DNA from: Terramyces sp. JEL0728
Taxonomy: Eukaryota > Chytridiomycota > Chytridiomycetes > Rhizophydiales > Terramycetaceae
Assembly (NCBI GenBank): GCA_027603945.1
Contig: JADIIU010000126.1
Span: 1-36,357, forward strand
Length of the DNA stretch: 36,357 bases
Direction: 5' to 3'
In this document: positions 101 to 35,591 of the stretch, in pieces
Layout: each line of letters begins with the position of its first letter
Numbering within the stretch: the first letter of the stretch is position 1
Notes under the pieces: model-generated
Told to the model about the DNA's origin: nothing
The model's database searches: none
The model's input: the letters and a program-made list of their open reading frames with translations, nothing else
Translations under genes and position numbers: made by a program

Positions 101-585
101 ATGTTCAGACCAACCTTGTTGAAAAGAATTCCAGTTATTCCAAGATTCAGACAAAATCACACCACCGCTCATTCACTCAGCGCACTAGAAACTCGTTGGA
201 GCAAGCTTCCAGAGGCAGAAAAGGGAGCCATTGCAGACTCGTTAGCTGAAGCGCAAAAGGGAGACTGGAAGAAATTAACTTTAGACCAAAAAAGAGCTGG
301 TAATTAGATTTAATGATAGCTTATTATATTGCTTATGGATCATTTGGAAACCGTTCTCCCAACGATCCAACTTTATCAAAAAGAGTTGGTGCTTGGGTAG
401 TCTTTTTCCTTGGTGTCGGTATGTTCCTTTGGTTCCAATCTAGCAAATGTAACGTTCTTTTAATCATAGTGCTTCCTAACTTGCGCACTCAAACCCCAGA
501 ATGGAAGGCGGCTACTGAATCTCTATCCATTGAACAGAAACAGAACCCATTCTCTGGCGTCTATGCAAAGGAATTGAAGAAATAA
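101..585 (+). CDS. COX4: Cytochrome c oxidase subunit IV (COX4/Cox5-like), mitochondrial
   Basis: Nuclear-encoded subunit of respiratory complex IV in the mitochondrial inner membrane. The spliced protein is 147 residues, a normal length for the family. It starts with a basic, acid-free presequence (MFRPTLLKRIPVIPRFRQ). The family signature follows: DWKKLTLDQKRAAYYIAYG near residue 60, one membrane helix (GAWVVFFLGVGMFLWF), then a C-terminal TPEWKAA segment. Two introns are inferred: 300-319 (20 nt), which restores KRAAYYIAYG, and 449-469 (21 nt), which gives SSKLLPNLRTQTPEW. The second intron is a multiple of three and has no in-frame stop, so its retention would only insert seven residues. 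NXT1 follows 35 nt downstream on the same strand. Identity is firm. The second intron is less certain than the first because the frame stays open without it. Confidence 0.93.
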
Positions 586-620
586 AGCGTTCAACTTTTT
601 TTGATTTTTTTGAAATTCAA

Positions 621-1035
621 ATGGATCCTCAAGTTCAGTTCAACTAACATAGGTTATCGACATTGCATGCAGGGCCGCAGATAAATTTGTAGCTTCATTT
701 TACAAAACTATGGATAAATCGAGGGGCGACTTCTCCAGCTTTTATAACGAGCAGTCTATTCTGCTGTGGAACGGAAATCCTTACCAAGCTCTGCAAATAA
801 TTCAATTTTTGGATCAACTACCGATAACTAAACATGAAATACTATCGTATGATTCGCAGCCGATTATATTTTCAAATCAAATGAGTTTACTTGTCTCAGT
901 TTCTGGCTTGGTAACATTTGAAGGAGATAAACCAAAGACATTTTCTCAAACTTTTGAATTAACCAAATTACAACAGCACTGTAACTCTTTCGTAATGTAG
1001 ATTTCATATCCAGCGACACCTTCCGCTTTGTCTAA
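621..1035 (+). CDS. NXT1: NTF2-related export protein NXT1 (p15)
   Basis: The NTF2-fold partner of the mRNA export receptor NXF1 (TAP/Mex67), acting at nuclear pores. The spliced product is 124 residues. It matches the NXT1 pattern along its length: CRAADKFVASFYKTMDK near the start, LLWNGNPYQAL, a central SLLVSVSGLVTFEGDK strand pair, and the end YFISSDTFRFV, which parallels the SDCFRF ending of animal p15. Two 20-nt introns are needed: 633-652, which leaves a first coding exon of only 12 nt (Met-Asp-Pro-Gln), and 981-1000, which removes a false stop and restores the conserved C-terminus. The first intron is supported by the recovered CRAA motif. It lies between COX4 and the SGF73-like gene on the same strand, with gaps of 35 and 80 nt. 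Confidence 0.9.
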
Positions 1036-1115
1036 TAAATAATATTATTGCTTCAAGACAATGTCCAGTTTGTAGCGGACAGTAATTTCAATTTGTGTTG
1101 GTCCAAATTTCTTTA

Positions 1116-1889: not shown

Positions 1890-4800
1890 TTATTGGGGTG
1901 TTGGCATAGAATGATTCATAGACTTTGCTACATTTTGGAATAATCTCTCAATCTCAGGCGGGGATTTGATAAATTTAGAGTCCCAAAAAGCATACTTTGG
2001 ATTCTTGATTAGTTCGATAAATGTAATCAAAAGTCCATATGGATGCGGTCTGGTGGCGATTAAGCGTTCAATCAATACCCTACGATTAGTAAAAATCACC
2101 TTGTGATTTGCTCCTTCATTATTTCTTGGTTAGCTTCGGAAAATAGATACAATAACACACAGCTAAAGTAGTGTGTTTGACTGTTTGGATAGCGCAAGTG
2201 ACTTGAAATGGCGCTCAAGAACAAGTAGCGGCCATCTGAGTCTAAATCTACCAACAGCTGTTGGAAAATATCCATTGCAACATTATTCGAAACTGGCGGA
2301 GGGCCTTGAATGTTCTTTGCTTGCGCTTGGTTAATAGCCTCCACGCCAACGTAAAATACCAAGCTATTAATCAGCGAAATGTTGTATTTCGGCAAAGAGG
2401 GAGAGTTATTGAGTAATACTGAGCTAATACGTCCAAGGAATGATACTGGGGTCCTAGTCTCCAGGTATGTATCTAGCTCCTGTTTAATATTGCTATCAAT
2501 TAGACATTGGGTATAATCCGATAAAATTTGTGGATTTTGATTCATTTCTGGAAGTAGATCTACTTTAAGATTTGGTGTAAATGGATCTGGTAATCGCATA
2601 TCTCTAGGGTATGCACTTAAAATCAAGTTCTTCAATTGAACACATGTGTACGGCAACACATCAATGAAACTAAAGTGATATCCACTTAAAAATTCCGGAT
2701 AGTCATGCAGTAGTACAAGCAATACACGCAAAGTAGCTCGATAGAGAGATTTTGAAGTGTCGTTCAATTGCCCCGACTGAAGAACTGGTGCCAAAAAGGT
2801 CAGCAACGCAATCATCACCTTCTGGTAATATGGCCAATACTAGATTATTTATAGACTACCTTTTGATTATCATATGAGAGCAATGGACCCATTAAATCAC
2901 GATGTGAAATGAGCTGGATCCATGAAAACAAAAATCCTGGCAACATTGAAGGTTTCAGCGAATAAAGAGTGTTGCAAATATGTGAGAGAAGAGGAGCGTA
3001 GATTTCGCCCAATTCGGCAGCAAATTCTTTAGCTTGGTCAATCAACGAATTAAATATCCTAAAGAATGGTTTTTGATTAAATATCGACTCAATGTTTTCG
3101 TGAGCGTTGACAGTTTCCAAGCAGATTATCCCCAGCGTTTTTGTAAGGAACGGTTTCCTTTCACTATTTTCTGAAATTTTCAAGATCGCCATAATAACAA
3201 AGCACGCAAATGCATCTATTGAAAGGTACGCGTTTTCTGGGGAGGCTGGTTGTTGGTTGAATAACGATACACATATTTCAATGCAAGTTCTTAGGAAAGT
3301 CGCCATACTGTTATCCGCTTTCATGAAACTAATGCTAAAGAACTAACATAAGACACACTTTACCTCTTCAATGTATTCAGCCCTTGCTTTGACACTCGAC
3401 GACGGATGAGAATAGACATGCACCCATTCTTCAAACACCATTGCTAGCAAACTCTTGAACGCTGCGTCCGTTGAGATTGACCTTTTTAACCTGCCAAGGG
3501 AAGTGTAACTGCTGATGTCTTGTAAAAAGCCTTTGATTCGATCTACATTGGCACCTCTGCCATCAATAGATTTAATTGCATTGATAGTGTACAAGAAATC
3601 TGTAGTTCCAACGACATTGTTGGAAACCAGAATTTCTCTTATCAAAGATATTGCAAAGAAAATCGATCCTGAAGATCCAGCATCTATCATCTGCCCAAGC
3701 CTGTTGTCAATATCGGAGCAAGTAAGTATTTGAGCGTTAATCAAAGCAATCGTAATTCTAGTGTCGTATTTTCTTTGATCGTCGCCATACAAGAACCATT
3801 CCTTTAATTCACGGGAAAGCACTTTGGCTCCATCGATTAATTTTCTGAGTATAAATACATAAACTTCGCAGGCTAGAGATGATTTGTTTGCGAAAAGCAT
3901 TTGTACAACTTTTTCGCCACACAATAGACAGCATTCATCGGCGTTAGCAGACTGAGAAAGAATATAAGAGATTTGCCCCAAAGCTGTTTTAATAGGATGT
4001 TGATTTGGTAATAGGTCAAAGGTCGAGCTTGCATTTTCGGTGATATGTAGGTCCAATTCAGTCATGATAATGGTAAACTTTTGCAAAATTTGCTCCGGCG
4101 GTAGGATTTCATATTGAATAGGAACACTGGCGAGTCCTTCACCTCTGATTTCTTGTCGAGGTAACTGTGGGCGGAGACGTTCAGCTTCTTCAATAAAGTC
4201 AGTATTACCTGGGTTGCTGTTTATAAATGGAATACGCATAAATGCTTCATAAACGCTCAATTGGTTTGGACTGAGCCCGCCAGGTCTTGGCTGAAGTCCC
4301 TCTGGCAAGCCATTCAGAAACCTAGTGGAATTAAAGGCAGAAGGATCAAAGAACTGTTGCCCAGACCGCTGTTCTCTGTGTTTTCTTCTGTTTACAAACG
4401 ACAATGCCAAAGTCTCATCAATTTCTGGGATAGACTTTTCAGCAGCAGCTTTTTCCATCACCGAACAAGCAAGATCAAGATTATCAGAAACAATAATAAA
4501 GATAATTTGTTCAGGAACGGTTTGTTCAGTGTATCCATTTGCCATCAAAAGAGTTTTCAAGTTGCTGATCATGCTAATCTTCAATGGTTCCCTAGAGGAC
4601 ACAGATGCAAGACTTCCAGCTAAACTCTGAACCATATACTGTGCCGATTTCCGCATCTTTTCTTCGTTTGGCTCAAGAGCAAAGTCTTTTGTTACTATTT
4701 CCCTTGTAGCAATTATTGCAATAGTGACACTTCTTTCAACAACTGGCGAGCGGATTACTTCTTGAATAGACTTGTCGATCGCAATATGCACAATTCGTTT

Positions 4801-7641
4801 TAAAGTAGGCTGGGAATTGAACAAGGTGATGTTTGGATTGAAAGTTATGAATGAAGCAAGGTTTGGGTAACCAATGCCAATACCATCATCCTCCTGCACA
4901 GATCTATTAACGCTTGCATCGAATCCTGGCTGGCGATAGGCTTCATTTTCAGATTCTCTTCGAGATCCGCTTTGGATCCTCTTTCGCAATATTTCGGTAG
5001 GCTTGATGTCTAGATGAGTAGTTTGGGTACCTTTGATATCCAGCTTCAAATTTTTGCATAATACTTCAATCTCAAACTTTAGATTTAGTTTGAGTTCGGC
5101 AAAATGATATAATTCTGCCAGTAAACGCATAATAGCCATCAACCAAGGGTTCGGAGGTCTGAACACCTTGCTTCCACTACACTGTTCCAAGACTTTGCAC
5201 ACGAATGGAATCACAACGATTAGTCTCTTTAACTCGTACCCTTCCATCAGCAATTCCTATTATTAATCTCTTTTTACCTTGAACGCCAAGTTGTTGTGTT
5301 TGATCGGCTTGTTCCTCGCTAACGAGATTGTGCCAAGCCATGCCCCCAAGTTCTTCAAGAAAGATCTTTCCTGGGAGGAATTGAGAGTCTTTTCGCTATT
5401 AAGCAAGCCACGTATACTAGAGAGAGTTTCGTGGAGGACGATGGGATATATTTGTGGAATTTTCAAGTTATCCATAAAGTCCAAGTATATTGCTTGGTTG
5501 TTTGGTTCAACGCTGACTCTTTTCACCACAATGTAATTGCAAAACCACCTCAAGTGGCTAAACTTGAGAATTTCCAGCAAATCTGCAACCTTTGAAGGAA
5601 TGTTTGTCAGCGTTACATTATTTACCACAAACAAAATGTTGTCGCGCACTGCTTCGCTCGGGACTTCGAAATGTCCAACCTCACTTTCGTTAATAATCCC
5701 ATATAGTTGAAGTGCAGAGAAAATTCCATCTTGCTGAATTGGCCGTTGAAATCCGTTATCAACAGCTGCATTTGGGTTTCCAGGTGTAGTTTGTCTTTGA
5801 ACATTTTTAATAAAATGGATTATTTTTGGATGTGCTTGATGTAAATGTTCAATCTGCAACAACAAAGAACAGTATTGGCTCCATTCAGGCAGCCTTCCCT
5901 GGAATTGTGCAAGTGCAGAAATACCGAACTGGAACAGCTTTGATCCAACAGGCTGTCGCAAGGCTTCCAACACATACCGCAATGCAATTCCAAGCGATAC
6001 TGAGGTTACGATTTGGTTTTGAATCAGCACTCCAAACAATATACTGGTGATGATCAATTCACGATCTGGATATCTTGAAAAGAATTTGTATTCGTCAAAT
6101 AAATTGTGAATCATGCATTTAAACGTTTCCTGGTCTCTAATATTCGGAGATTTCTTCAAGATTTGAAGTAATTCTATTACCTGTGGGATGGAAAGTTCGC
6201 CTTTATAGATCTTTTCGTAAAATGCATTGGTTTCTTCTTCGATATCGGGGGGAAATATCGCAACTTCTACTTCTTGTGCGTCCCCTCTTGGGAAGAGCTG
6301 AGCACAAGCATTAAAGATTTTTTCTCTATAATCTTGGTTTTCAGGAGACATTTGACTAAGTTAATAGTAGCAAACCTGCTATTTGCGTGCAAGACCTTAA
6401 GAAAAGTTGTTACCACATCTGGCGAAAGCAAAACTGTTTGGGGAATATCCGACCGACCATGTTGAGCAGCGGTGATCTTGTCATTCAAAAATTCCAAACA
6501 AGCTCGAACAAAGAGTTCCCCCCCTTCCCGGATATGGTCTTGAAGCCATTTCTCCAAGTTTAGATATTCTCTTCTAGATGACAATGCAGCAAGATCAATA
6601 GCAAAAGCATATCGCTTAGTTTCTAAAATCTGGGATAATGCTTTTAACTCTTGTGCAACATCCAATATTCTGGAAAGAGAAGAGCCGTCTGTTGAATATA
6701 ATGCAACCATCCCTTCAATAATCACGGCAGGATATGTGTCCCAAACCTTTGGTAGCACTATTGGAGCGTTCGCGTTGCCAGAAATGAGTGCAATAACCAG
6801 TTTCCGAGATAGATCTTCCACAAACCCACTCCTTGGCAACTACAATTAAAATAGCTTACATTGAACGATAAAATTGCCAGTAGTAAAATTTCCGGTGCCT
6901 GTTCAAATGCAAGATCAATTAAAGCATGGCATTCCTTCAAATCGCTGTAATCCAGCACAATTCTGCATAAATCCAAACTATTCCAACAGGATTGAATGCA
7001 AGAATTAAAAAAGAATCGGGTTGTAGCGTTCAAGGGGAAAGTTTCTTTAGAAACAACATGTCGGGTTACATGCTTACTGAGTGTGAACAATTCAGGGGTG
7101 ACCTTAACTACATGAGTTAGAAAGCTCAGCTGTGCTTTTCTATTTTCCCATCTATCCAGAAATATATTTGTAGGAAAGTTATTTAATTCCTGTGGTTAGG
7201 TACAATTACTGGCACCACGGCTTTGCAAGCTTTAAGCAATACAGACACATTATCCAGAGTTTTAAAGTTGGCTTCCGGATTATCCAAGTATCTTAAAACC
7301 TTATTCCAATCAAGTTTCGTGCTCTAAAGATCAGAATCGGTTACCATTTTAAACACCAGCGGAAAGAATAAATCCACATTCCACGTTTTCATTTGCGACA
7401 GCATTTGCTCACTAGCTTCATCCAAGATTCCCGAAGTCAAAGAGTGGAGTGTTGGATTGTCGGGTAAGCCAGAACAGGTCTGTATCATCATCATCAAAAC
7501 ATTTGCAACATCCTTGTCGTTAATTTTCATATGAGCATTCGAGGGATATATTCCAAGCTGCTCCAATACGGCTAAAATCACGTTTGAAGAATATGTAGCC
7601 CCATATCCCAAATCCTTGAGATAGAGATGTAACGACACCAT
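1890..7641 (-). CDS. CNOT1: CCR4-NOT transcription complex scaffold NOT1/CNOT1
   Basis: Scaffold of the cytoplasmic CCR4-NOT deadenylase complex, which shortens mRNA poly(A) tails. Nine exons give 1862 residues. Recognisable parts in order: an N-terminal helical repeat beginning [25 protein letters not shown] and [20 protein letters not shown] (about 290-330); the MIF4G end near 640-760; the CNOT9-binding DUF3819 region (about 930-1040, with [13 protein letters not shown]); and the NOT1 C-terminal domain (about 1400-1862), ending [18 protein letters not shown] and [13 protein letters not shown]. Introns (20-21 nt) lie at 2080-2099, 2840-2859, 3343-3363, 5257-5277, 6356-6375, 6840-6859, 7190-7209 and 7324-7344. 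The start is the first in-frame ATG after an upstream in-frame TGA. This start omits roughly the first 200 residues of human CNOT1, so the N-terminus is genuinely short or an upstream exon was missed. Little room exists for one, since NAA10 starts 29 nt away on the other strand. Confidence 0.95.
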
Positions 7642-7670: not shown

Positions 7671-8173
7671 ATGATCACAATTCGTTCTGCTACTGCTAAT
7701 GTATATCAAAAGATAATACTAGGATATGATAGAGATGCAAAATTGCAACTTGCATAATTTACCGGAAAATTACAGTATGAAATATTACATATATCACTTG
7801 ATTTCTTGGCCGCAGCTTTCGTTTGTAGCAGAAAACAATGGCAGGATTGTTGGATATGTGTTGGCAAAAATGGAAGAAGATTTATCTCTTGAACCTCACG
7901 GTCATATTACTTCATTGTCAGTTATGAGATCCTGGAGACGCCTTGGAATAGCGCAAGTACTTGCTACTAACAAAGAAATTAATGACCCAAGCACAAGTCG
8001 CAATGAAAGAGAATTTCAAGGCTAATTTTGTGTCTTTACATGTGCGTAAAAGTAATAGAGCAGCCCTTTCATTGTACCGTGATAATCTGGAATTCAAGTT
8101 GCATGAAGTGGAAAAGGGATATTACGCTGATGGCGAAGTACTATTTACTAATTCTAGGATGCTTTGGCAATGA
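7671..8173 (+). CDS. NAA10: N-alpha-acetyltransferase catalytic subunit NAA10/ARD1 (NatA)
   Basis: Catalytic subunit of the ribosome-associated NatA complex, which acetylates N-terminal Ser, Ala, Thr and similar residues exposed after Met removal. The spliced protein is 153 residues, close to the conserved catalytic core. Conserved blocks are [53 protein letters not shown], the acetyl-CoA binding [23 protein letters not shown] and GYYADGE. Introns are 7701-7722 (22 nt), after the 10-codon first exon [10 protein letters not shown], and 7957-7975 (19 nt), which restores [12 protein letters not shown]. The first intron is chosen because [20 protein letters not shown] reproduces the family N-terminus exactly. 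It lacks the long acidic tail of animal NAA10. Confidence 0.95.
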
Positions 8174-8229
8174 GAAAACAACTATAATAAATCTAAAATT
8201 TTCTTAATTTTTTTGATCTCTAATCTCCA

Positions 8230-8600
8230 ATGTCTTCGATAGTTGATGCCAAACCTAAATCAGAAATGACTGAAGCTGAATTGCTGGCTTTGGAAGAAGC
8301 AGAATTCCAATCTGGACCGCTGTCTCTCTTGACTCAGGTAAATCCCACTAACAGCAGTCTGTCAAGAACCACAATCAGATATTAATATTTTGTAGAAATA
8401 ATAGAAAATTGTTGGCGAGAATCAAGGCATTCGATCGACATTGTAATATGGTATTGGAGAATGTGAAGGAAATGTGGACTGAAACCCCAAAAGTCAACAA
8501 AGGGCAAAAGAAAGCAAAGCTTGTCAATAAGGAAAGATTTATTTCTCAATTGTTTTTAAGAGGAGATTCGGTAATTTTGGTTCTGAGACACACCGCGTAA
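8230..8600 (+). CDS. SNRPD2: Small nuclear ribonucleoprotein SmD2
   Basis: Core Sm-ring protein of the spliceosomal U1, U2, U4 and U5 snRNPs. The spliced protein is 116 residues. It matches SmD2 across its length: [11 protein letters not shown] and [13 protein letters not shown] at the N-terminus; Sm motif 1 in [25 protein letters not shown]; and Sm motif 2 in [13 protein letters not shown]. One intron at 8338-8357 (20 nt) ends in a tandem CAGCAG acceptor. Using the second AG gives LTQSV as in other SmD2 proteins; the first would add a Gln. The protein ends shortly after the last strand. The stop lies 21 nt from the convergent NAD synthetase stop. Confidence 0.95.
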
Positions 8601-13072: not shown

Positions 13073-13133
13073 ATGATGATTTTAGTATTAATTTTCGTGT
13101 TTGTTTTCTGGCAGCTTCTTTTTTTTTCGACAA

Positions 13134-14685
<1,552 letters not shown>

Positions 14686-18514: not shown

Positions 18515-18547
18515 TATATTCCAATCATCTCTAATACCTTTTAATTC

Positions 18548-25025: not shown

Positions 25026-26407
25026 ATGTCTATCGGATTACTGATACTATACGTACTCTCCGTACTAGTTACTGGATTGTTAGCGCTTACCTCCCTCGCA
25101 CACACAAAGATATTCCATTCACTTAAAAATGCACAACAGCTTGCGATAATTTCCTCAATAGTAACCGAGTATTCTGTCTACATCCTCTCCAGCAAACTAA
25201 TGATGTTATACGAAATGGACTCGTCGTACTTTGATTCCACAATAATGACTATTATTTACAGACTCGATATCGTTATTACCCTCAGTTTCTGGGCGTTTTT
25301 CCTCCAATCAGTATTTTCTCGCCATCCTATTTATGAACAGACAAAATTCATGAGGAACGAAACCTCCACCATCCCACCTTCTATTTTTACGTAAGATTTT
25401 GCTAATGCAGCGTATCTTTTTGGTTTAGATTCAACAATCCGTTCTGGGATGCCAGAAATATCTTGTTCCAGGATAATATTCTTTATGCCACTGAACAAGA
25501 GGTATTGGAAGCCTCCAAGAACAGCCCAAGAGCGAAAACTCAGTTATCTTTGGATATCCACCAGCACCCTTCATTCCCAAGAAACAGACCAGTTGTGGTA
25601 CTTTTGCTTTCATAGTAGATTTACATTCACGGAGGAAATTGGAAAGAAGGATCCAAAGAAGAAAGACCTCCTCTCGTTTCTTATTTGACTTTGAAAAAGT
25701 ATGTTCTCGTCTCAATCAATCACCGCTTGGCTCCGTTTGTTGACATCAATGAACAGCTAATTGATGTCAAGAGAGCCATTAGATGGACCAGACAGAATAT
25801 TCATAAATTTGGCGGAGATCCTTCGTTCATTGCTATTTGTGGTGGTTCTAGTGGTGCCCATTTAGCTACTATGGCTGCATTTACCCAAAATGAAAAACGC
25901 TACCAACCAGGATTTGAAGATGTAGATACCTCTATACAAGCCGTGGTTTCCCTTGGGGGCTACTTTGATGTAACCCACAGCTGGGGATACAAATTTGAAT
26001 CGTCTTTCAGAAAATCTGTTGCCAAGTCAGAAGATATGGAAGTATCCCGCAGATTTTCTCCAACTTGGATCTTGAAAGAAGCTGAAGCAAACAAAACAAG
26101 AGTTGCTGCGACCGAAGAAGATAAACTTGGCCCGGTTTTCCCACCAATGATGATTATTCAGTAAGCATATATTCATATTAGTGGCAAAAATGATTCTCTG
26201 GCCCCAATCAAACATGTTCGCGATTTCAAGAAAGAGTTCTCTATCGCTGCCAAGAAAGGCTCCCACATTACGTATATTGAACTGCCTTGTGCGAATCACT
26301 ATTTTTACAGATGGTCTTCACCTAGATCTCACACGCTAGCCTATGGCATAGAGCCTTTCATCAGATCCTTTTATGAAAAGCATCTCGAAGCAGTCAAATC
26401 CCAATAA
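25026..26407 (+). CDS. Membrane-anchored alpha/beta hydrolase (HSL/esterase type)
   Basis: A 439-residue protein with hydrophobic segments in the first 100 residues (IGLLILYVLSVLVTGLLAL, a middle one, and IVITLSFWAFFLQSVF) and a C-terminal hydrolase. The catalytic domain shows the oxyanion motif YIHGGNW (about 187), NHRLAP, the nucleophile GGSSGAH (about 260; G-x-S-x-G), Asp in HGKNDS (about 369) and His in CANHYF (about 404). That completes a Ser-Asp-His triad. Introns are 25391-25410 (20), 25598-25618 (21) and 26161-26181 (21). The second ends TAGTAG; only the second AG avoids a stop codon. It resembles membrane-bound carboxylesterases and steryl-acetyl hydrolases; the substrate is not known. 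Confidence 0.88.
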
Positions 26408-26436: not shown

Positions 26437-27333
26437 TTATAAAACATCTCTCTTTTTTGCTGTTCTTTGGTACGGACGATATACCCATTCTGTATCTGCT
26501 TCAGTTATATCCACTGTTCCAAGTTTAATCTGATATGCTAAAATTAATAATGCTTACCTTGCATTTCAAATCTAGGCCCAACTTCCACTAATTGCACTTC
26601 GTTTTCCAACTTGTAATACACATGATGCCTGAATGAAATGAAATCTGAGGAATTGGCGAATGTCATCACTCTCTTTGAATCTTCCTTTGGAACAGGAAAC
26701 AAGTATTTCAAGATGTTCTTCACCTACATTAAAATAATTTACCCTACTGCCAAGTTTAGAAGAGAACTTGTCAAATATCAAATGTGGATATTGCTCCGAC
26801 ACAGTACCTCTATCCGGAATATCATGGCGAAGTACTACATTATGGAGCGTAAAGTGTATAGTAGGTCCGTGTGGAAAATGTGATATAACCATTCCATCAG
26901 GCTGCCCTCTGTGTTCATGCAAAATAATCAAGTCAGTAGCATCGCTCTTTCTACAAGCTTCGACAATATCCCCAATTACGTAGTTGCCTCTATTCATTCT
27001 TTGTGAATTTGGGAACATTAGTTTCATTTCTTTTGCAAACTGTGTCAACCTTGAGCTTGGATCGCGGGAAGTTGTAATTAGCACTTTTGGGTCGACTTCC
27101 CCGGCTCTCGAGTATTCATCGTCTATATGGGTTTCTGGCTCTTGTTGCGCTTCGTCATAAATTAAATCTTTCTTTAGCTGCTGTGCTTCCTTTCTCAATT
27201 CGTTTGGTATTGTCTTTCCATCCTGTAAAGCTTGCTTGATGGCTTGCTTCTTTTCATATATTTGTCTGTCCTTTGATTCTAAAGCTTTGCGGTAAAGGTA
27301 TTCTCGCCTTTCTCTGGTTTGTCTTTTGTTCAT
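26437..27333 (-). CDS. IMP4: U3 snoRNP protein IMP4 (Brix domain)
   Basis: Component of the Mpp10-Imp3-Imp4 subcomplex of the SSU processome, which aids U3 snoRNA pairing with pre-rRNA in the nucleolus. The spliced protein is 285 residues, the usual length. A basic helical N-terminus ([20 protein letters not shown]) leads into the Brix domain: [120 protein letters not shown] and [17 protein letters not shown]. Introns are 26724-26742 (19) and 26538-26557 (20). The gap to the convergent hydrolase stop is 29 nt. Confidence 0.96.
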
Positions 27334-27364: not shown

Positions 27365-27705
27365 ATGGCAACTGTGATTAAACAGCTGTGGGGAATTCAC
27401 CCACCATTTCTCAAGCTAAGAACAAAGAAATCTTTGTCGCAGTTAATCCGCCATTTGCCAAAACAAGGGGTCGGATACAAAGTTCAGCCAACGGAATGGT
27501 TCAAGAAAGGAAAGGATGCCTACTATCAAATTACAAAATACGAGGTGCATATTGTTAACCGCAGGGTACAAATATTTACGGAATCAAAGTAAGAAACGGG
27601 CTACAAGAAGGCAACGAAGGGATTCTGCAAGAGAAATTCAATAACTGGGCATTCTACTCGACCAGAGAATTTATTGAAACACTAAAGACGAAATTAAGCA
27701 AATAA
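27365..27705 (+). CDS. MRPS34: Mitochondrial small ribosomal subunit protein mS34 (MRPS34-like)
   Basis: A 106-residue protein resembling mS34. The conserved core is SLSQLIRHLPKQGVGYKVQP, then TEWF and a YYQITKYEG strand (compare LPxFGxGRxVxRxxW with YxRITxV in animal MRPS34), followed by YGIKVRNGLQEG, the equivalent of the WGxLxxxG segment. The intron at 27545-27564 (20 nt) is required: without it the frame ends early and the GIKV block is lost. The protein is shorter than animal mS34. Assignment rests on a short region and is good but not certain. Confidence 0.75.
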
Positions 27706-27886: not shown

Positions 27887-28492
27887 ATGACAATCAGCTT
27901 GACAAATTCTTTACAAATGTTCAGTTGCTTGCGGTTTTTCAATAAGCTACAGCTGATCCAAGCTCCAACCAGCGATGAAGATGCTCTATCCTCACAACAA
28001 CTTGAACACGACATGAAAATTAGCCAAATGCAGGTGCAAATTAGACTGCAAGAGCAGAATTTTGATTTGTTAAACAAGGAAAACTTGGAACAGCAAGACA
28101 CTATAGATCGCCTTCAAAAACAAGCTGATCTCTACAAGTATTCCCGAGACGCAGCTAGACTCCATGCTAGAAACCAAGAAAAAGAAATTCAAAAGTTAAA
28201 CTCTCTTGTCAGCGAATTCAAACAAGAATATAACGCTACTGGCCAGGTATTCCAGGAGCTTCAGCGTCAAATTTTTGAACTTCAAACAAAGTTGTCGCTC
28301 AACAAGAATTTGAAGGTTGTTGAGAAGGGAGACTCAATTGCCGTGTATACCAAGGAAGGAGTTCGAATGGTTCCTATCAAGATTCAATCTCCGGTAACTA
28401 ACCGCTGGATTGAATTCAATGGTCAACGGTACAAGAAATTACAAAAGGATGGTATCGTCGACAAGTATGGAAATCCAAGAAATCAAGTTTGA
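27887..28492 (+). CDS. Coiled-coil protein of unknown function (201 aa)
   Basis: I do not recognise this protein. After about 30 residues with a short hydrophobic patch (MFSCLRFFNKLQLI), a long heptad-type coiled coil spans about residues 35-150 (KISQMQVQIRLQEQNFDLLN, LEQQDTIDRLQKQADLY and QELQRQIFELQTKL). A small C-terminal part with beta character follows: VEKGDSIAVYTKEGVRMVPI, RWIEFNGQRYKKLQKDG and KYGNPRNQ. No intron is needed. It lies 37 nt before ALG9 on the same strand. The C-terminal part may be the conserved portion and would be the best search query. Confidence 0.7.
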   Translation: MTISLTNSLQMFSCLRFFNKLQLIQAPTSDEDALSSQQLEHDMKISQMQVQIRLQEQNFDLLNKENLEQQDTIDRLQKQADLYKYSRDAARLHARNQEKEIQKLNSLVSEFKQEYNATGQVFQELQRQIFELQTKLSLNKNLKVVEKGDSIAVYTKEGVRMVPIKIQSPVTNRWIEFNGQRYKKLQKDGIVDKYGNPRNQV

Positions 28493-28529
28493 ATAAAGTT
28501 GCGTTTTGTTTTCATTTTTCCTAATCACC

Positions 28530-30394
28530 ATGTTTAGTCTGACTTTGGTTTCGCTGATTATTACACGGTTAATAGCAGCGATATACTCGAATATGCAAGG
28601 TATATGACTATTAAATAGACTGCGATGAAGTTTTTAATTACTGGGAAGCGCTGCACTACAAGATTTATGGATATGGGTTAGAGACTTGGGAATACGCTCC
28701 ACAATACTCTCTCCGTTCATGGGCATACATTTCACTATACGGCTTATTAAACCAAGTTGCCGAGTTGATTACCCACAACAAGATTTTGGTATTTTATGGA
28801 ATTAGAATTTTGCTTGGATTAATCTGTGCAGTGATTGAATACAAATTCTCGCATTCAATAGGAGTTCATTTACATCCTAGAGTCGGGAAGCTTGTCAAAG
28901 TATTTTTGGTTATCAGTCCTGGAATGTATATATCTTCAACTGCGTTTTTGCCGTCCACTTTTGCAATGTATTTCATGACCATGGCTTACGGGATTATGTT
29001 TAGGCCAAAAAGTACTTTGAATATCTGGCTGTACATCTTCTGCACCACTGTCTCGGGGCTTTGGGGGTAAATTTCATTAATGCAGATGGCCGTTCAGCTT
29101 GGCATTGGCAGCGGTGTACATCATCCATCACTTTTTAGTTGGTGGTTTCTTTAGATACCTGTTTACTATGATTACCGGCACGTTTATCTCGCTATTTGTT
29201 TGTGTGGTAATTATATTTAATTTAGATGCCTTTGTTGTTGGTAGACTCTGAATATTACAAGAAATTCACTTTTGCGCCTTGGAACTTGTTAAAATACAAC
29301 GTATTCGAAAGCGATCGTGGGCCAGACTTGTATGGTATAGAGCCATGGTTTTTTTATCTGTCCAATGGAATTCTCAATTTCAACATTGTATTTATAGCAG
29401 CACTAGCAAGCCTACCGATAATCGTAACATTCATTAACTGCAGGTAGTTAGCAAATTCACTGAAATGAAACTTACTTTTCAGAGTTGGACTGAAGTTGTA
29501 ACATATCAGTTGCCATTCTATGCGTGGTTGGCTATTTTCAGCTTGCAGCCACACAAAGAAGAGAGATTTATGTATGTGGTATTTCCAATGATTTGCTTCA
29601 ACGCGGCTGTTGGTTTACACGCATTCCTGAATATTCTGCAGACAGTTATGCTTTATTTTGAAAAGATACGGGTAATCTTGAAATAACGCAGCAATTCACG
29701 TTCGGCACAATCTCAGTACTCAAGAATCTTTTTATATTTGTATTTACATTTATTTCAATTACTAGAATATTTGCGCAGCATCAGTTTTACAGTGCTCCTA
29801 TGAATGTATATGCTCATCTGGAATCCGCGCGGCCTCCTTTAGTTACCCTGGATGAATGGACAAAAGCAAACCAAACTTCCCAGCCATTTTATTCGAAAAG
29901 GGAATTGAATGTATGTGTTGGAAAAGAGTGGTATCGATTTCCATCCCATTACTTTATTCCGTATGGGATGAAACTACAGTTTATACGTAACCATTTCAAT
30001 GGATTGATTCCTGGATATTTCAAGCATGATAAGGTGGACTTGAGTGAAATGGAGAATATACAAATGTATGCTGAGCAAATGAAAAAATCATCTCGCTATT
30101 ATCATCATATACCCACAACAGTCAATGATTTGAACAAACCGGAACCAAGTTTATACGTATTTGGAGCTAATTTAGGCTGATATCTCGCAGTGCGATTATC
30201 TCGTAGACACTATTTCCGCCGATACCACTAATGAAGATCCAATTGAGCCATTTTACGGAAATAGAGTGGAGTGGAGCAAAGTGTTTTGCCAGCCTTTCTT
30301 AGATGCAAGCAAGACCAAATTCCCTGCTAGGGCATTTTACTTTGGAGGGGAAAAGGTCTGGTTAGATTATTGTCTGTATGTAAAAAATAGATAA
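28530..30394 (+). CDS. ALG9: Alpha-1,2-mannosyltransferase ALG9
   Basis: ER membrane mannosyltransferase that adds alpha-1,2-mannose from dolichol-P-mannose to the lumenal lipid-linked N-glycan precursor. Seven exons give 582 residues. The GT22 hallmark CDEVFNYWEALHY is near residue 25, followed by GLETWEYAPQYSLRSWAY, SSTAFLPSTFAMY, GWPFSLALAAVY, VDSEYYKKFTFAPWN, GPDLYGIEPWFFYLSNG, QPHKEERFMYVVFP, a lumenal VCVGKEWYRFPSHYFIP and CQPFLDASKT. Several hydrophobic helices lie between. Introns are 28600-28618, 29067-29085, 29207-29225 (19 each), 29424-29443, 29672-29691 (20 each) and 30157-30175 (19). Its stop is 10 nt from the convergent coiled-coil gene. Confidence 0.95.
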
Positions 30395-30404: not shown

Positions 30405-33400
30405 TTATTGATAAGATCTTTTTGTTCTTGCCGATTTCTCTTCCCATTCTCCCATGTAATTCTTTTCGGTTTCTTCTTGTAGCTGTTGGTGGTTTTCTAG
30501 AACGATGAAATGGTGAAGAATATTTTCGGTTACTTCATTAACTGCTAGATTTCTGTATTCGATAAAACGACGTCGGTGAACATCTGCCGATTTCTTGCAT
30601 TGGATGGAAAATTTGCTGTAACGATCAACAACTTCTTTGAATGGAGTCTTTGTCAGTTCCAATGGTTCCAAAACCTGCCACTCAGAGGTTGGATCTAGAT
30701 TAACAGAAAATACCCCCTGGTTTAAAAGAAACATCAATGAAATCATCAAAAATGCCGGATGCATACACCGATAAGAATTGAATTCTGTCAAGGAAATCAA
30801 CTAGTGCCTTTTGGAATTCGTTTGAACATTCATCGCGTAAAGCTTGATAGCTCTGCAACAAATCCGCGGAAATTTGAGCAACCAGCAAATCCAGTCGTTC
30901 GATTTCCTGTATTCTCTCATACTTTGTGTTAATCAATTTGAGTTCTTTTTCGCACTTTTGCTTTTCATCTAAACATGTTTGTCTAGCTGCCACAAACCTG
31001 TTTGTTCCATTTTTCCATATTTTAGCCATTCTGTCGATTGTATTGATCCGGATTAGGTTTGTAACTTCAAGGATCGACTCTTCCACTCCCTGGCTAAATC
31101 TCTGCACATTTTCATGAAATTCTCGTTTATATTTAGTTTACCTTGAATTTTTGATTCTTTGAATTGGTTAGCTTCCTGCATAAAATCTGCAATAAAAGTC
31201 CTGTCGACCATGATTACAAATTCGACCATGTTGCTTGGAATAGCGTCGGTTTTCTTTATTTGATTATTTGCTATATGAATATCATACTTTTCGGTTACTG
31301 CTTTTTTCGCAGCGTCAATCCATCTTTTGAAAATAGCATTTAACCCGTTTTGTTCAGTTTGTACTTTGCAGATACCGAATAGTGCTTTATTTGCAGGAAG
31401 GTTTGGTTTTGGAATAATTTTTGCTGTGCTTATTCCTGCTCCTTTAAAGGAGATCTTTTCCTGTTTTTCTCTAGATACAGTACTAGCATTCGCATCTCGT
31501 TGTTGGCTAATTTGAACACTTGCCCTCTGTAAATCTGATTGACTGGATTTTGAATTTTTTCTTGAGAAAGTACGGCTTGATTCACTTCCTCTTGCTTCCA
31601 GAGTTGAATTTTTTCTGGATATTATTTCTCCATCAAACATTGGATTTGTAGTCACTGATTCAATATCTTGATTTTGCACATAGATATTCAAGTGCGGTCT
31701 AATTAAATAGCTAATACCTTTCTTTCCATGCATCCCATAGCTGAACAAGTGGTTTTTCCAAATCTGCGTTGTTCGTTAATGCATATGCGCAACACAAATA
31801 CTTTGCTAGCTGCGATGCTTCACGCTGAATATTTCTGGTCGACTCAAGCATATTTAGTATGTCGGTCCAGGTTTCTGTGGCCTTTGTTAAAACCAGGTAA
31901 TTATTAATAGTACTTGCAAAATCTGCTTGGATCTTGTTACATTTGATTTTCTATAGTTAGCTTTAATTGCCTCTCCTTTCATCAAATTTTTAATTTTTCT
32001 CCAGTTCAAGTGTACAAAATCCAAAAATATGTTGTCTTGTTCGTAACATTCGATATCATTCCGACACTGCTTTATTTGATTCGCTACATCTTTATGCAAT
32101 TTGTTCATTTCATCCTCCATACCATTCCTCCAATTGTCCAACACGGCAATAATCGTAGCCGCGTCGTAATCTCCTTGCTCTTTGATGAGCAACCATGCAC
32201 TTGAGTGATTACCTTGCGCTCTGGATCTGCCAATCATTTTTTTAGAAAGATCAAAATTGGCTATTGCGCTACCTAATTCTTCCTTTATGTCATCTTGGAA
32301 CATATCGACGAGAATTGAGAATTCCCTTTTCAAATTTTGTACTTGCAATGTAGATTTGCAGCTAGCGAGCCTGCTATTTGTCTCTTTCAGTGTAGAGTTC
32401 ATGAATTCTTTAAAAATTGCCAAAACATTCTTCAAGCTGTCAGTCAGTGTATTTCGGACGGTTTCTATGGCATTTATTATAAACGCAGCTTCATTTTCAT
32501 GGGCAACACCAATCCTGGACAGCTCCTCTTTCAATTACTCATTGCTTACCTATTCTAGCGGTACCAGCATTTTCTGTCGCAAGAATTTTTCGTAATTGGT
32601 TATTCATTGTTTGCATGCGAGCTTCCACTAACTGATTGGTTTTCGTTTCAATTTTGTTCTGGATTTTAGTTTTTGTTTCTTCCCATAGTTTGTTTGCCTC
32701 CAACATTATTCTTTTGGATAATTCTAATCTCTTTTTCTTGATTGGCTCAGGATCAAAAACATGAATCGTTACAATCGCATCGTCTTCGCTCTGATTTGCC
32801 AAATATCCCATATCCGATGAATCTTTGAAATCGTAGTTGTCAAATAATGTTAGAGCATTCGGGAGTTGGTGGGCAACTGCTCCATCTAATAGTGTATCCT
32901 TTCGCTGTGCGGCAGCAGCGCCATCAGATTTTGCTCGTTCTCTTGCGGGCACTTTTACTTGGTGCAACCTCTTCTTTGCATCAGCTTCATTTTGACTCTT
33001 TTGTTTAATGAATGCAGCTTGGTCTTGTTTCCATTCGTGTATTTTCTGCTGCCAGAATTGGTGCTCCAAAAACTTTACATTTGGATCAGCGGCGTTGTAT
33101 GTTTTCTCTTTAAACATTTTCCCAAGCTAAACTAAGTTTCAAATTACAATATCCTGGTACAAATGAAAGACATTTTCACCCCTATCCATGAACGAATTAA
33201 TTATTTCGATCGACTTCTTGAACCGCTCATGCACACCTATATTAAAGCCTCAATACTCTCCGCTAACACTTGATTATGCTCTTTAATCTTTTGCACTTTC
33301 TTTGGGATATTGCTTTCTTTGAATTCATTTTGCAGCGCCAGTAAATCTGCTTGAAATGTTTTTTCGGCAGTTTCCATTATTTTATCATAATGGATCGAAA

Positions 33401-34965
33401 CATCATTTAATTGTTTTGAAACTTCAATTTCAATGTCGATCAATTGTGCTTCAAAGAATCCTCTTTTTGTACAGGAAAGGCAACAAACGAATTCAATGAC
33501 CATTCCTCTAATAAACCGATTGGTTTTTGCTTTTGAAAGCAAAGAGATTGAAGCTCTCTTTCCTGTCTGAATTTCCTCATCTTTGGACATTGAATTTACA
33601 AACTTTATAATATCTGCCTCGCTTTCGGGATAGATCTAGTATGTCAGAAACAAATACCTCATGAAGTTTAGCATACCAGAAGCCGTATAATTTTGCCATA
33701 CAGGCATAGATTTCTTTTTCAATAAGATTCAATTTTGGCAGGAAATCTTGGATTGTATGACACTGAACTGTAACACCGATATCCATGTTCTTTATCCAGA
33801 TTTCATACAATTCCGAGAAATTATTTTCGTCGTATCTGTCCATTATTGCCAATAGCCGATTCAATCCAGTCTGTGCGTTGTCTCTAAACCTTGAATTGAA
33901 ATCACTATAAAATTGCCCGATATCTAACTTGTATACTTGACGTACTTGGGATTCAAATACTGGATAAATAAAGTCCCAACGAGCTTTCTGCCAAGTTGCG
34001 TCAGATATTTGAAACCTTTTTTGTGTTTTTTCGTTCATGACTTTCAGCAACTTGTGGAAATCATAAACGCATTCATAGATTGACTCTCTGTTGTTTAATA
34101 GGATTGTATTTATGGAGACGGACTCTTCCTTTAATATCAAATCGATTGCATCGTGCCTCTGGTAGTTTAACTTCTTTAATTGATCAGCAGCATTTAATAG
34201 GGTAGATCCAAGTTTTTTCGCTCTCTGATTTTCAATATCCTCCAAGCTCTTTTCTAAATCAATCAGCGCGTCCGACATTTTGGCTGAACGGACCTCAAAC
34301 ACGTATTTGATTGTTTTATACTTTTGAAGCGAATGTTTTGCTAAATCTATATCGATGGTCTTGATAGTGGTATTATTATCTATATGAGCTTGTTTTACAT
34401 TCAGCATAAGCCAACCAGCTGGCCAGATATGCGTCTAACGTGTTCTTGAAGTTTTCATTGTATTCTTGAGCAACTTTCTTCAACGTCTCTTGCATTGCGA
34501 ATATAATAGAGTTGTGCCTAATGTTAGAAGTGCATACCTTTCCAGCAGAGTCACTCTCTTTTTCCCAGCTTGCCATAATGCCTCCTTCAGTCCGCTTTCC
34601 GCTAATTGAGCCTGCTTCTTTTGGTCATCCTGTACAGTTGTTGCTTCGTTTAGCGGGTCATCTCCCATAATGATATCCAGCAATTTCATTTCCACGTCAT
34701 ATTCCAATGGTACCAACGGTGGAAATTCATCCAACTCTCTAGGATGGTGCCATATTAATGTATGAATTGACTTTGCGATTTTCCCTTCAACTCCTGTCAG
34801 ATTCGAACTATGAAGAAGATTGTGACCGCTATATGTACGAGGCAAATAATTTCTCCTGATTACAGTAGGCATATTCAGTAAATCTACCTTTTTGGTAACA
34901 GCTGGCTCCTCTTTTGGAGTATCTACTTCCTTTTTCTTTCCTTTCTTCCCTGACGCTGGCGGCAT
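30405..34965 (-). CDS. Large coiled-coil protein, CCDC180-like (DUF4455/DUF4456-type), probable flagellar protein
   Basis: Eleven exons give one continuous frame of 1452 residues, almost wholly helical with many heptad stretches, such as LKEALWQAGKKRVTLLER near the start, and FSILVDMFQDDIKEELGSAI and QADFASTINNYLVLTKATE in the middle. Charged clusters and the absence of membrane segments fit an axonemal or cytoskeletal filament. Size and organisation resemble CCDC180, a protein of ciliated organisms, but no single motif proves it. Introns are 30695-30713, 31122-31141, 31699-31717, 31951-31970 (GC-AG), 32528-32549, 33127-33147, 33237-33256, 33636-33657, 34380-34398 and 34518-34537 (19-22 nt). 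The start used is the ATG giving MPPASGKKGKKKEVD, which is typical for such proteins; an open frame extends upstream to about 35082 with hydrophobic, less likely sequence. Confidence 0.75.
31951..31970 (-). other. GC-AG intron in the large coiled-coil gene
   Basis: Two reading frames must be joined between GGA-GAG and AAA-ATC-AAA. No GT lies at a usable place, but a 20-nt piece beginning GCAATT, with CTAAC before the final TATAG, restores the frame (GEKIKCNKIQADF). Length and branch position match the other introns. GC-AG is the commonest minor variant of U2-type introns in eukaryotes. Confidence 0.75.
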
Positions 34966-35237
34966 AAAAGACAAAACGCGTTTTATTCCAAAGCACCTCA
35001 AGAGCAGCCGATATTTGCAATATATTTCATAAGTTGTAAAACGAAGAGTAAAGAAAATGTATATCCATGCAATTCCTTTCAAACCCAGCTCTTTCTGGAT
35101 TACAGGAATTGTTATAAGGACAAGTGGTCAATACTCGGCCGGCTTTCATCACAATCTCAAGACTGTACTTGTTACTGTCTTGCGCTAGTGTATTTCATAG
35201 ATCTAGAAAAGTTTAAACTGTTGGACAAATTTTTTTA
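34966..35237. other. 272-nt divergent gap; holds a 43-codon + strand frame (35057-35188)
   Basis: The upstream regions of the coiled-coil gene (minus) and RPA3 (plus) share this gap. On the + strand an ATG frame at 35057-35188 encodes 43 residues (IPFKPSSFWITGIVIRTSG inside). The composition is protein-like, but no family is recognised, and whether it is translated is unknown. No other feature was seen. Confidence 0.25.
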
Positions 35238-35591
35238 ATGAATCAACAATCTACACCGAGAATCAATTCCAATCAATTGGGAAGCTACATTGGAAGCATT
35301 GTTAGATTGGTAGGGACAGTGAAATCAGTACGTATCACTAATACAGAAAACTGACACTCAAGCAATCCTCGAAACCTCTGATAAGGGCCAAATTTCTATT
35401 TTGTTACAACAAGGATCAGAATGTAAGACGGGAGTAGTGGAAATACTTGGTATGGTTGAGGATATTGGAACTGTAAGAGAAATGGCTGTATCAAATTTCA
35501 ACCAGAATTATGGTTTTTGAACTTTAATTTAGATCCTGAAATCTATTCAGAAATGGTAAGATTAACTGCAAAATATACAGAAATATTTTAA
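35238..35591 (+). CDS. RPA3: Replication protein A 14-kDa subunit (RPA3)
   Basis: Smallest subunit of the single-strand DNA-binding RPA heterotrimer, a single OB-fold. The spliced product is 104 residues. It follows the RPA3 pattern: PRINSNQLGSYIGSIVRLVG, TSDKGQISILLQQGSE, VVEILGMVEDIGTVREMAV, SNFNQNYDLDPEIYSEMVRL and a final short helix. Introns are 35328-35346 (19) and 35513-35532 (20); the second brings the conserved FDxxxYNE-like DLDPEIYSEM into frame. Sequence similarity is typical for this poorly conserved subunit, but order and spacing agree well. Confidence 0.87.

Follow-up and report, generated by a model that had tools for sequence, protein, structure and literature searches.

Predicted spliceosomal introns of only 19-22 nucleotides in the chytrid Terramyces sp. 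JEL0728

Nearly all introns of the chytrid Terramyces sp. JEL0728 (Rhizophydiales, Terramycetaceae) would, as judged from genomic sequence, sit at a narrow length optimum of 19-22 nt, and we are close to certain that they are genuine U2-type spliceosomal introns. We infer their removal from reading frames, homology and a comparison of alleles. The whole stretch of DNA analyzed here, called the window below, is the 36,357-bp contig JADIIU010000126.1 of assembly GCA_027603945.1. A preliminary description had taken it for nuclear DNA of a fungus-like organism with flagella, which fits both its source, a chytrid, and the presence in the window of a flagellar gene, DNALI1 (axonemal dynein light chain). 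Ultra-short introns are already known, chiefly in the nucleomorphs of algae and in certain ciliates; their occurrence in a chytrid is the new part, and no description of tiny introns in a chytrid was found in the literature searched.

The window was rebuilt with 71 introns in some 24 genes, about three per gene, with lengths of 18 nt (1 intron), 19 nt (20), 20 nt (30), 21 nt (12), 22 nt (7) and 23 nt (1). Compared as length distributions, this is close to the preliminary description, which had 75 introns with counts of 1, 23, 31, 10, 9 and 1 from 18 to 23 nt. Dynamic programming restricted to 17-24 nt gave 65 of the 71, many of them on the basis of frame and codon bias alone, and the other six were placed by homology (9152-9172, 13137-13157, 13231-13252, 20922-20941, 21030-21049 and 31951-31970). 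The ends are GT-AG in 69 introns, GC-AG in one and apparently GT-TG in one; it is to be noted that GT..AG was imposed by the finder, and that four of the six homology-placed introns are GT-AG. The earlier set stands in its sizes and needs two corrections, GC-AG at 31951-31970 and an apparent GT-TG at 13231-13252.

Introns in the following account come from dynamic programming unless a placement by hand or homology is named. On the plus strand, the COX4-like gene (101-585) has introns of 20 nt (300-319) and 21 nt (449-469), and the SCA7-domain gene (1116-1873) has one of 19 nt (1217-1235, from frame and codon bias) and one of 22 nt (1460-1481). The NOT1 gene (1890-7641, minus strand) carries 20-nt introns at 2080-2099, 2840-2859, 6356-6375, 6840-6859 and 7190-7209 and 21-nt introns at 3343-3363, 5257-5277 and 7324-7344; when aligned with CNOT1 (8fy3_A), the junctions at 6356-6375, 6840-6859 and 7324-7344 are ungapped, and that at 7190-7209 has a gap of one residue. 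Again on the plus strand, the GNAT acetyltransferase gene (7870-8187) has introns of 19 nt (7957-7975) and 20 nt (8138-8157), and the gene for SmD2, a core snRNP protein (8230-8600), has one of 20 nt (8338-8357, ungapped against 1b34_B). In the NAD+ synthetase gene QNS1 (8622-10800, minus strand), ungapped junctions are found for the 19-nt introns 8805-8823, 9416-9434, 9604-9622 (with a one-residue gap five or six residues upstream) and 10219-10237 (where the deposited protein P0001 differs) and for the 21-nt intron 10286-10306. Its remaining 21-nt intron, 9152-9172, is in frame and free of stops, so that no frame test can detect it; it was placed against NAD+ synthetase 6ofb_A, relative to which its retention shows as a seven-residue insertion, and P0001 lacks the segment. 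The QNS1 protein of Boothiomyces has seven additional residues at the site of 8805-8823. Further along the plus strand are a 20-nt intron (11343-11362) in the CDP-alcohol phosphatidyltransferase gene (10812-11605) and, in the MORN-repeat gene (12493-13072), introns of 19 nt (12540-12558 and 12745-12763), 20 nt (12613-12632) and 18 nt (12648-12665), the last being the shortest of the window.

The RuvBL2 gene (13134-14685, plus strand) has, just behind its start ATG, a hand-placed 21-nt intron (13137-13157) that is in frame and stop-free, and that the deposited protein P0123 retains, reading MVNHELIK. The homology-placed 22-nt intron 13231-13252 ends in TG instead of AG, and once it is removed the junction is ungapped against RuvBL2 7aho_D, as are those of 13451-13472 and 14131-14152 (22 nt), 13670-13690 (21 nt), and 13892-13911 and 14522-14541 (20 nt). 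The CHY zinc-finger gene (14845-15280, minus strand, 5' end uncertain) has introns of 20 nt (14947-14966 and 15043-15062), 19 nt (15212-15230) and, close to the uncertain start, 23 nt (15254-15276). All junctions are ungapped in the DRG/Rbg1 GTPase gene (17352-18514, plus strand), with introns of 20 nt at 17719-17738 (against Rbg1 4a9a_A) and 18240-18259 and of 19 nt at 18125-18143, and likewise in DNALI1 (20591-21471, plus strand), with introns of 22 nt (20818-20839), 20 nt (20922-20941 and 21030-21049, both homology-placed, and 21413-21432) and 19 nt (21229-21247). Between these two lies an unnamed gene (18596-20500, plus strand) with introns of 21 nt (18665-18685), 19 nt (20033-20051) and 20 nt (20259-20278). 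The alpha/beta hydrolase gene (25026-26407, plus strand) has introns of 20 nt (25391-25410) and 21 nt (25598-25618 and 26161-26181); IMP4 (26437-27333, minus strand) has ungapped ones of 20 nt (26538-26557) and 19 nt (26724-26742); and a small plus-strand gene without a Pfam family (27365-27705) has one of 20 nt (27545-27564). The Alg9-like mannosyltransferase gene (28530-30394, plus strand) carries 19-nt introns at 28600-28618, 29067-29085, 29207-29225 and 30157-30175 and 20-nt introns at 29424-29443 and 29672-29691. The coiled-coil PF14643 gene (30405-34965, minus strand) has introns of 19 nt (30695-30713, 31699-31717 and 34380-34398), 20 nt (31122-31141, 33237-33256, 34518-34537 and the GC-AG intron 31951-31970, whose removal restores the frame of Boothiomyces P0242), 21 nt (33127-33147) and 22 nt (33636-33657 and 32528-32549, the latter with an alternative discussed below). 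A possible 20-nt intron in a frame of about 40 codons (35513-35532, plus strand, gene score 1) is the weakest.

Is this length peak more than chance and more than a peculiarity of one contig? For a wider survey, which the preliminary description had proposed, 291 kb out of the 15.0-Mb assembly was sampled, and gene finding recovers the short-intron pattern with its 18-23 nt peak in 46 loci from many contigs. A gene finder whose coding model came from unspliced ORFs only, with flat lengths of 10-80 nt and no knowledge of branch points, called 82 GT-AG introns at 18-23 nt in this sample, against 6-18 for 12 control dinucleotide pairs; an earlier motif-blind run gave 85 against 5-14. With a flat prior of 14-40 nt, 267 of 291 motif-aware calls and 162 of 213 motif-blind calls fell at 18-23 nt. 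When GTA..TAAY..AG was counted on both strands of 240,575 bases, with the mean of five first-order Markov sets as the expectation, 97 were observed against 32.8 expected at 19 nt, 113 against 32.8 at 20 nt, 63 against 32.8 at 21 nt and 51 against 37.2 at 22 nt, while 18 nt (28 against 27.8) and 23 nt (39 against 31.6) were near expectation and lengths of 24-60 nt gave 0.9 to 1.7 times expectation.

It is still conceivable that the intron population is mixed, and that a substantial longer class was overlooked because it is hard to detect from frame alone; we consider this improbable. Of the 262 calls from length-permissive gene finding, 32 were indeed longer (42-297 nt), but these show no mode, and the nine in the window, which are those inspected, all dissolve. 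Five are fusions of adjacent genes (11517-11605, 13036-13271, 15212-15407, 20497-20541 and 28465-28537), 18488-18685 fuses adjacent genes across the short intron 18665-18685, 20922-21084 and 29335-29447 skip exon sequence next to short introns, and 31882-31940 is a misread of the 20-nt GC-AG intron. The earlier statement that no longer intron was needed survives for these nine and is ambiguous at one site, 32528-32564, which can be read either with 22 nt of intron and five inserted residues or with an intron of 37 nt, both of which fit. At 24-80 nt, the finder trained on unspliced ORFs made 59 GT-AG calls, below every control pair (87-127); this shortage is partly expected because true short introns are already taken, and a small long class is compatible with it.

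The short introns share a constant layout, with an AAG|GTAATT-like 5' splice site, a CTAAY or TTAAY branch site, and YAG 4-5 nt past the branch A. GTA begins 146 of 160 motif-blind introns as compared with 594 of 2000 random GT..AG segments, and YTRAY is present in 115 of these 160 as compared with 231 of 2000; of the 162 introns in a second motif-blind set, 104 have YTAAY and 117 have YTRAY. In 152 of 162 motif-blind and 253 of 267 motif-aware introns the branch A is base 14-16 of the intron, mostly base 14-15, that is, 13-14 nt past the first intron base. The GTA starts and the TAAT or TAAC before AG described earlier are both borne out, the enrichment of the combined motif lying at 19-22 nt, and the spacing between 5' splice site and branch point, then put at about 12-14 nt, comes to 13-14 nt. 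The branch motif is complementary to GUAGUA of U2, and a U2 snRNA gene with GTAGTA is present, as are genes for PRP8, SmD2, ISY1 and a U2AF65-like protein, the last gene itself carrying four tiny introns; U2, PRP8 and U2AF had been singled out for inspection. A METTL16-type domain marks a candidate U6 methyltransferase gene. Genome searches did not find U1 and U6 snRNAs. Since U6 is indispensable for splicing, its absence, and that of U1, more likely reflects assembly or search than biology. No match was obtained for the N-terminal domain of U1-70K or for RED, which in human acts on short introns, in searches whose controls also stayed silent.

Could the segments be artefacts, namely assembly indels, pseudogenes, or chance GT..AG picked to join open frames? 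AT-rich DNA does let gene finding join frames at chance sites, and the control pairs also yield their 6-18 calls, but GT-AG exceeds them about 5 to 14 times, and the branch motif has a fixed place although the finder was ignorant of it. In displayed alignments of seven spliced proteins with solved structures, 25 of 26 junctions in these widely conserved genes are free of gaps (RuvBL2 6/6, QNS1 5/5, DRG 3/3, IMP4 2/2, DNALI1 5/5, SmD2 1/1 and NOT1 3/4), and 22 of the 25 introns concerned had been placed without homology, the exceptions being 13231-13252, 20922-20941 and 21030-21049; these junctions cover a minority of the window introns, most of which rest on frame and codon bias. Compared by hand, deposited proteins of three genes agree at 18 of 23 introns (P0001 5/6, P0123 5/7 and P0241 8/10). 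At the other five, they retain or skip pieces, so that annotation mishandles such genomes. Two allelic copies compared over 9.9 kb differ by seven indels, of which two are in 226 nt of predicted intron (both 21 versus 20 nt), five in 3,027 nt of intergenic sequence and none in 6,123 nt of exon. Substitutions number 1 in 226 nt of intron and 59 in 6,123 nt of exon, without an intron excess and in numbers too small to judge. Both the conserved genes and the two length-polymorphic alleles with intact exons contradict artefacts, which we regard as a very remote explanation.

Equally hard to credit is that the segments are kept in mRNA, where ribosomes would bypass them or shift frame across them, or that something other than a spliceosome takes them out. 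Examples of programmed bypassing and frameshifting are known, but here 71 segments in some 24 genes of an ordinary kind, about three per gene, would be concerned; they have GT..AG ends and a U2-complementary branch motif, and U2 and PRP8 are encoded in the genome. Self-splicing or other structured introns are rejected, because 19-22 nt is too small for a conserved folded core or ORF, and the window holds no Rfam family at gathering score.

If these are U2-type spliceosomal introns, each would contain little beyond its own splice signals, and introns would be defined by a near-fixed ruler. The branch site would pair with U2 while U6 and U5 dock the 5' splice site merely 13-14 nt away, in a presumed order of snRNP binding. 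Because donors are A-rich at +4 and G-poor at +5, docking would probably owe less to long U1 pairing than to U6 and to the pairing of U5 with the exon, and the METTL16-type enzyme might methylate U6. Annotated proteins suggest that tiny introns also exist in Boothiomyces and perhaps in Globomyces, where back-translation gives 27 nt. Did Terramycetaceae, and perhaps neighbouring Rhizophydiales (Globomyces), independently evolve a ruler-type spliceosome? In it, U6/U5 would be the main grip on the 5' splice site while U1 pairs little at +5, the branch A would be fixed at a distance of 13-14 nt, and the branching factors that extend into the active site would have undergone a remodelling parallel to that in Stentor. 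This is a speculative and rather doubtful proposal. The predicted ISY1 start (MAPKTLAQKQE...) is unaligned with solved ISY1 chains until residue 32 to 41, and the Stentor ISY1 N-terminus is reported as non-conserved (PMC9505925), which may be a faint hint of such remodelling; against it, the Pfam Isy1 profile matches from its position 12, and the gene's first exons are themselves uncertain.

Efficient splicing in human extracts required about 50 nt between 5' splice site and branch, and with 35 nt one substrate no longer underwent assembly (PMC6692369). A fungus splicing about three introns per gene across 13-14 nt would let biochemistry and cryo-EM address how small an intron the spliceosome can handle, and Terramyces, a relative of animals and yeasts, adds a lineage for testing explanations drawn from Stentor and nucleomorphs. 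The likeness to nucleomorphs and some ciliates pointed out earlier is apt. In the nucleomorph of Bigelowiella natans, most introns are 18-20 nt (PMC5014332, PMC12316389), a near-fixed length as in Terramyces, but this is a relict endosymbiont nucleus, not a fungal nucleus with a 15-Mb assembly. Stentor coeruleus, with introns of 15-16 nt in which base 10 or 11 is the branch A (PMC9505925), has a similar fixed-ruler layout, and its most frequent intron sequence begins with GUAAUU (PMC9505925), which the commonest Terramyces donor resembles; Terramyces introns are 4-5 nt longer, and have a clear CTAAY/TTAAY motif where that of Stentor is weak. Paramecium has ultra-short introns only, genome-wide, of about 25 nt (PMC5014332), longer than those of Terramyces and in a different supergroup. 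Type B introns of Trichomonas have a minimum of 23 nt (PMC12316389), but Trichomonas is intron-poor and has another class as well, of 56-196 nt, whereas Terramyces has many introns of one class. Cryptococcus, like Terramyces, is an intron-bearing fungus with spliceosomal introns, and these, with a mean of 63 bp (PMC8476143), are about three times longer.

Can introns of 18-23 nt, as claimed from the sequence alone in the preliminary description, be recognized independently of any gene model? Segments of the form GTA..TAAY..AG were counted by length on both strands of 240,575 bases (the window, stretch L001 and one 10-kb stretch from each of 20 other contigs of the assembly, which comprises 15.0 Mb in 231 contigs), and the expectation was the mean of five sets of first-order Markov sequences. 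At 19, 20, 21 and 22 nt, 97, 113, 63 and 51 segments were observed against 32.8, 32.8, 32.8 and 37.2 expected, with 28 against 27.8 at 18 nt, 39 against 31.6 at 23 nt, and 0.9-1.7 times the expectation at 24-60 nt. A gene finder fed with frame-specific base usage, stops and GT..AG, under a flat length prior of 10-80 nt, called 148 GT-AG introns across about 244 kb; 85 were of 18-23 nt, a range in which 12 control dinucleotide pairs (GC/AG, GT/AC, CT/AG and GT/TT among them) gave 5-14; at 24-80 nt, GT-AG gave 56 and the controls 94-128. As GT-AG gene models had served to train the coding model of this run, the control was repeated with a model from unspliced ORFs on 46 loci (290,791 bases), giving 82 GT-AG introns against 6-18 at 18-23 nt and 59 against 87-127 at 24-80 nt. 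With an excess of GT-AG in the former range and none in the latter, a single intron class stands out clearly. A second class of longer introns finds no support in the control-pair runs or in inspection of the window calls. As for the statement that no longer intron was needed anywhere, the counts at 24-80 nt lie below the controls, with no sign of a large longer class; a few longer introns may exist, and at 32528-32564 in the PF14643 gene the intron may be of 22 or of 37 nt. A codon-only gene finder with an intron limit of 300 nt linked exons by false long introns, and a frame-specific Markov model was substituted for it.

Under a flat prior of 14-40 nt on the 46 loci, 267 of 291 calls fell within 18-23 nt when the finder knew the branch-point motif (motif-aware) and 162 of 213 when it did not (motif-blind), the latter being of 18 (3), 19 (48), 20 (67), 21 (31), 22 (13) and 23 nt (0). 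This run repeated, without overlapping loci, an earlier motif-aware anatomy run in which some loci had been counted twice (L050-L052, and the overlap of L031 and L033); it still includes the near-identical pairs L040/L041 and L045/L047, recognized by shared 60-mers, which may be recent paralogues or alleles. Genes were left uncounted when scoring at most 30 in the first frame-specific Markov runs, the first control-pair run, an early anatomy run and the control-pair part of the 46-locus run, at most 20 in one further run, and at most 15 in the length-permissive, anatomy, motif-versus-random and 46-locus runs.

Within the window, a run limited to 17-24 nt placed 65 introns and homology six more, and these 71 are of 18 (1), 19 (20), 20 (30), 21 (12), 22 (7) and 23 nt (1); each of nine rebuilt gene models ends in a single terminal stop. 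The 75 introns counted previously, of 18 (1), 19 (23), 20 (31), 21 (10), 22 (9) and 23 nt (1), agree with this as a distribution of lengths, the level at which the two sets were compared. One homology-placed intron, of 21 nt at 9152-9172 in QNS1 (NAD+ synthetase, reverse strand), begins GTAC, ends AACTGTAG, is stop-free and is unreachable by any frame-based method. A QNS1 query retaining it shows a seven-residue insertion against the solved NAD+ synthetase 6ofb, and the same seven residues are absent from the deposited Terramyces protein P0001. In RuvBL2, the intron at 13137-13157 follows the start ATG immediately, is in frame and has no stop, and for this reason the deposited protein P0123 starts MVNHELIK; that at 13231-13252, whose removal homology requires, ends CTCTG, that is, GT-TG, explained either by a base error or by an uncommon 3' splice site. 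P0123 is without 15 residues at this place, instead of having that intron removed. The others placed by homology are at 20922-20941 and 21030-21049 in DNALI1 and, as a GC-AG intron of 20 nt (GCAATTAAAGCTAACTATAG), at 31951-31970 in the PF14643 gene.

When seven spliced proteins were aligned to solved structures, 25 of the 26 displayed junctions were ungapped: 6/6 in RuvBL2, 5/5 in QNS1, 3/3 in DRG/Rbg1, 2/2 in IMP4, 5/5 in DNALI1, 1/1 in SmD2 and 3/4 in NOT1, whose fourth junction has a gap of one residue. Homology had itself supplied three of these 25 placements (one in RuvBL2 and two in DNALI1), which leaves 22 that do not depend on it; in this alignment the QNS1 query kept the 21-nt intron, and in the protein database search the query had it removed. 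By hand comparison, the models agree with three deposited proteins at 18 of 23 introns (5/6 in P0001, 5/7 in P0123 and 8/10 in P0241, the protein of the PF14643 gene). Many of these segments are already spliced out in the deposited annotation, and the fact is therefore latent in public data. As for the deposited NAD+ synthetases, P0001 loses residues beside tiny introns, and P0002 of Boothiomyces seems to have introns retained as residues.

What should two copies of the same genes show if these segments were instead coding? Contigs C199 (stretch L034) and C111 (stretch L035), found within one assembly, are 98.6% identical across 9.9 kb and seem to be alleles, in which case the strain is probably heterozygous at least locally. 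Of their seven indels, five fall in intergenic DNA (3,027 nt) and two in predicted short introns (226 nt), with none in predicted exon (6,123 nt) or in long introns called by the model (520 nt); genes scoring below 8 were left unlabelled. Both intron indels are of a single base, turning a 21-nt into a 20-nt intron in two different genes with downstream frames intact; were the segments coding, one allele of each gene would carry a frameshift. Exons carry 59 substitutions, short introns 1, 'long introns' 5 and intergenic DNA 37, so that substitutions do not single out introns. The whole comparison covers one contig pair, with small counts. A second copy of the NOT1 region was sought and none was found, so that this test lies outside the window. 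By sequence evidence, the 18-23 nt introns are confirmed as real, and they are seen throughout the sample.

In the 162 motif-blind introns, A stands at +3 in 91% and at +4 in 60%; at +5, T (43%) is commoner than G (21%), T makes up 57% at +6, an exon-final G precedes 56% of the introns, and 25 start GTAATT. In an early anatomy run, +4 A and AAG preceding the donor were frequent. The branch A is at position 14 (77), 15 (63) or 16 (12) in 152 of the 162, with no motif in six; the distance from the 5' splice site is 13-14 nt, in line with the 12-14 nt first proposed. Of 160 introns in an earlier run, 115 contain YTRAY; GT..AG segments of 19-22 nt drawn at random from the same DNA contain it in 231 of 2,000 cases. 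In the motif-aware run with some loci counted twice, the branch A is mostly 4 or 5 nt from AG and intron G+C is 29.6%.

What machinery handles such introns? Of the components singled out for inspection in the preliminary description, these three are encoded: U2 snRNA (140 bits, GTAGTA retained), PRP8 (an open frame of 1,409 residues) and a U2AF65-like gene, whose model has four tiny introns and which matches 404 of 510 profile positions at a score under the curated cut-off, probably because the tiny introns break the gene. The window itself carries an SmD2 gene, from which one tiny intron must be removed. On contig C19 (stretch L036), a METTL16-type methyltransferase domain (PF05971), in a gene model with two tiny introns, marks a candidate U6 methyltransferase. 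Rfam models found neither U1 nor U6 snRNA in the assembly, though U2 is clear; two core-pattern searches for U6 found nothing, and two sub-cut-off Rfam U6 matches were rejected, being inside a protein-coding gene, in two alleles. No U1-70K was recognized by its RRM signature in sets of 8 and 13 loci, nor did profile searches find the U1-70K N-terminus or RED. Since U6 cannot be missing, these absences carry no conclusion; a U1-less genome was considered, and no claim of it is made, as U6 too escapes such a search. An ISY1 candidate aligns with solved ISY1 from residue 32 to 41 onward, and the match to the Pfam profile starts at profile position 12; the N-terminus of the candidate is uncertain, as the model requires exons of 1 and 3 nt. 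At this start, on the reverse strand of stretch L050 (contig C35), three intron-like segments nearly abut, with 1 and 3 nt between them.

By one report on human splicing, the 5' splice site and the branch must be about 50 nt apart, and a spacing of 35 nt prevented early assembly on one pre-mRNA (PMC6692369). Across 13-14 nt, U1 on the 5' splice site and U2 on the branch could hardly co-occupy the intron in the human manner; they might bind sequentially, or U1 might pair only briefly and weakly. U1 pairing favours G at +5. As this G is rare here, the donors fit brief or weak pairing of U1. From this, the +4 A, the AAG before the donor and the METTL16-type gene (compare PMC9803359), we infer that docking of the 5' splice site probably leans on U6 and on exon pairing by U5 more than on long pairing with U1.

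Terramyces belongs to Chytridiomycota (Rhizophydiales, Terramycetaceae), and the spliced NAD+ synthetase of the window is 99% identical to the deposited Terramyces protein, the next chytrid among the matches listed being Boothiomyces macroporosus at 86%. An aphelid or sanchytrid origin, considered at first, was abandoned in view of such protein matches. The window also encodes DNALI1, an axonemal dynein light chain, a gene that fits a fungus with flagellated zoospores. At 35789-36352, an open frame with many KHDDYKPKPTT-like repeat units continues past the window end. Do relatives share the introns? Among 29 aligned QNS1 proteins, from chytrids and their near kin and selected from 120 listed, residues common to at most four proteins make up the following insertions of at least four residues: Boothiomyces has two of 7 residues, Globomyces one of 9 and Synchytrium microbalum one of 23, and three other proteins have C-terminal tail pieces. 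Both Boothiomyces insertions are at Terramyces intron positions (9152-9172 and 8805-8823) and, from the protein only, can be back-translated by hand into 21-nt GT..AG segments that contain a branch motif; that of Globomyces, likewise from the protein and in an ambiguous alignment, back-translates as 27 nt. These insertions in the two genera look like introns retained by annotation. Tiny introns are thus probably no younger than Terramycetaceae, and short introns may reach beyond this family.

Introns of this kind are surprising for such a host. The literature search found no paper on JEL0728, and the matches listed, which leave most subscription journals outside, hold no description of a chytrid with such introns. 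In a survey that covered 644 fungal genomes, Cryptococcus, with a mean of 63 bp, is named for relatively short introns (PMC8476143). Ultra-short introns as a kind are already established, and the host is new as far as the literature was searched. Reports describe introns of 18-20 nt in nucleomorphs and of about 25 nt in Paramecium (PMC5014332), and one of 23 nt in Trichomonas (PMC12316389). Stentor introns are reported to be of 15-16 nt, and their branch A to lie at position 10 or 11 (PMC9505925); on that account, the layout is the same as in Terramyces, and the ruler is shorter in Stentor.
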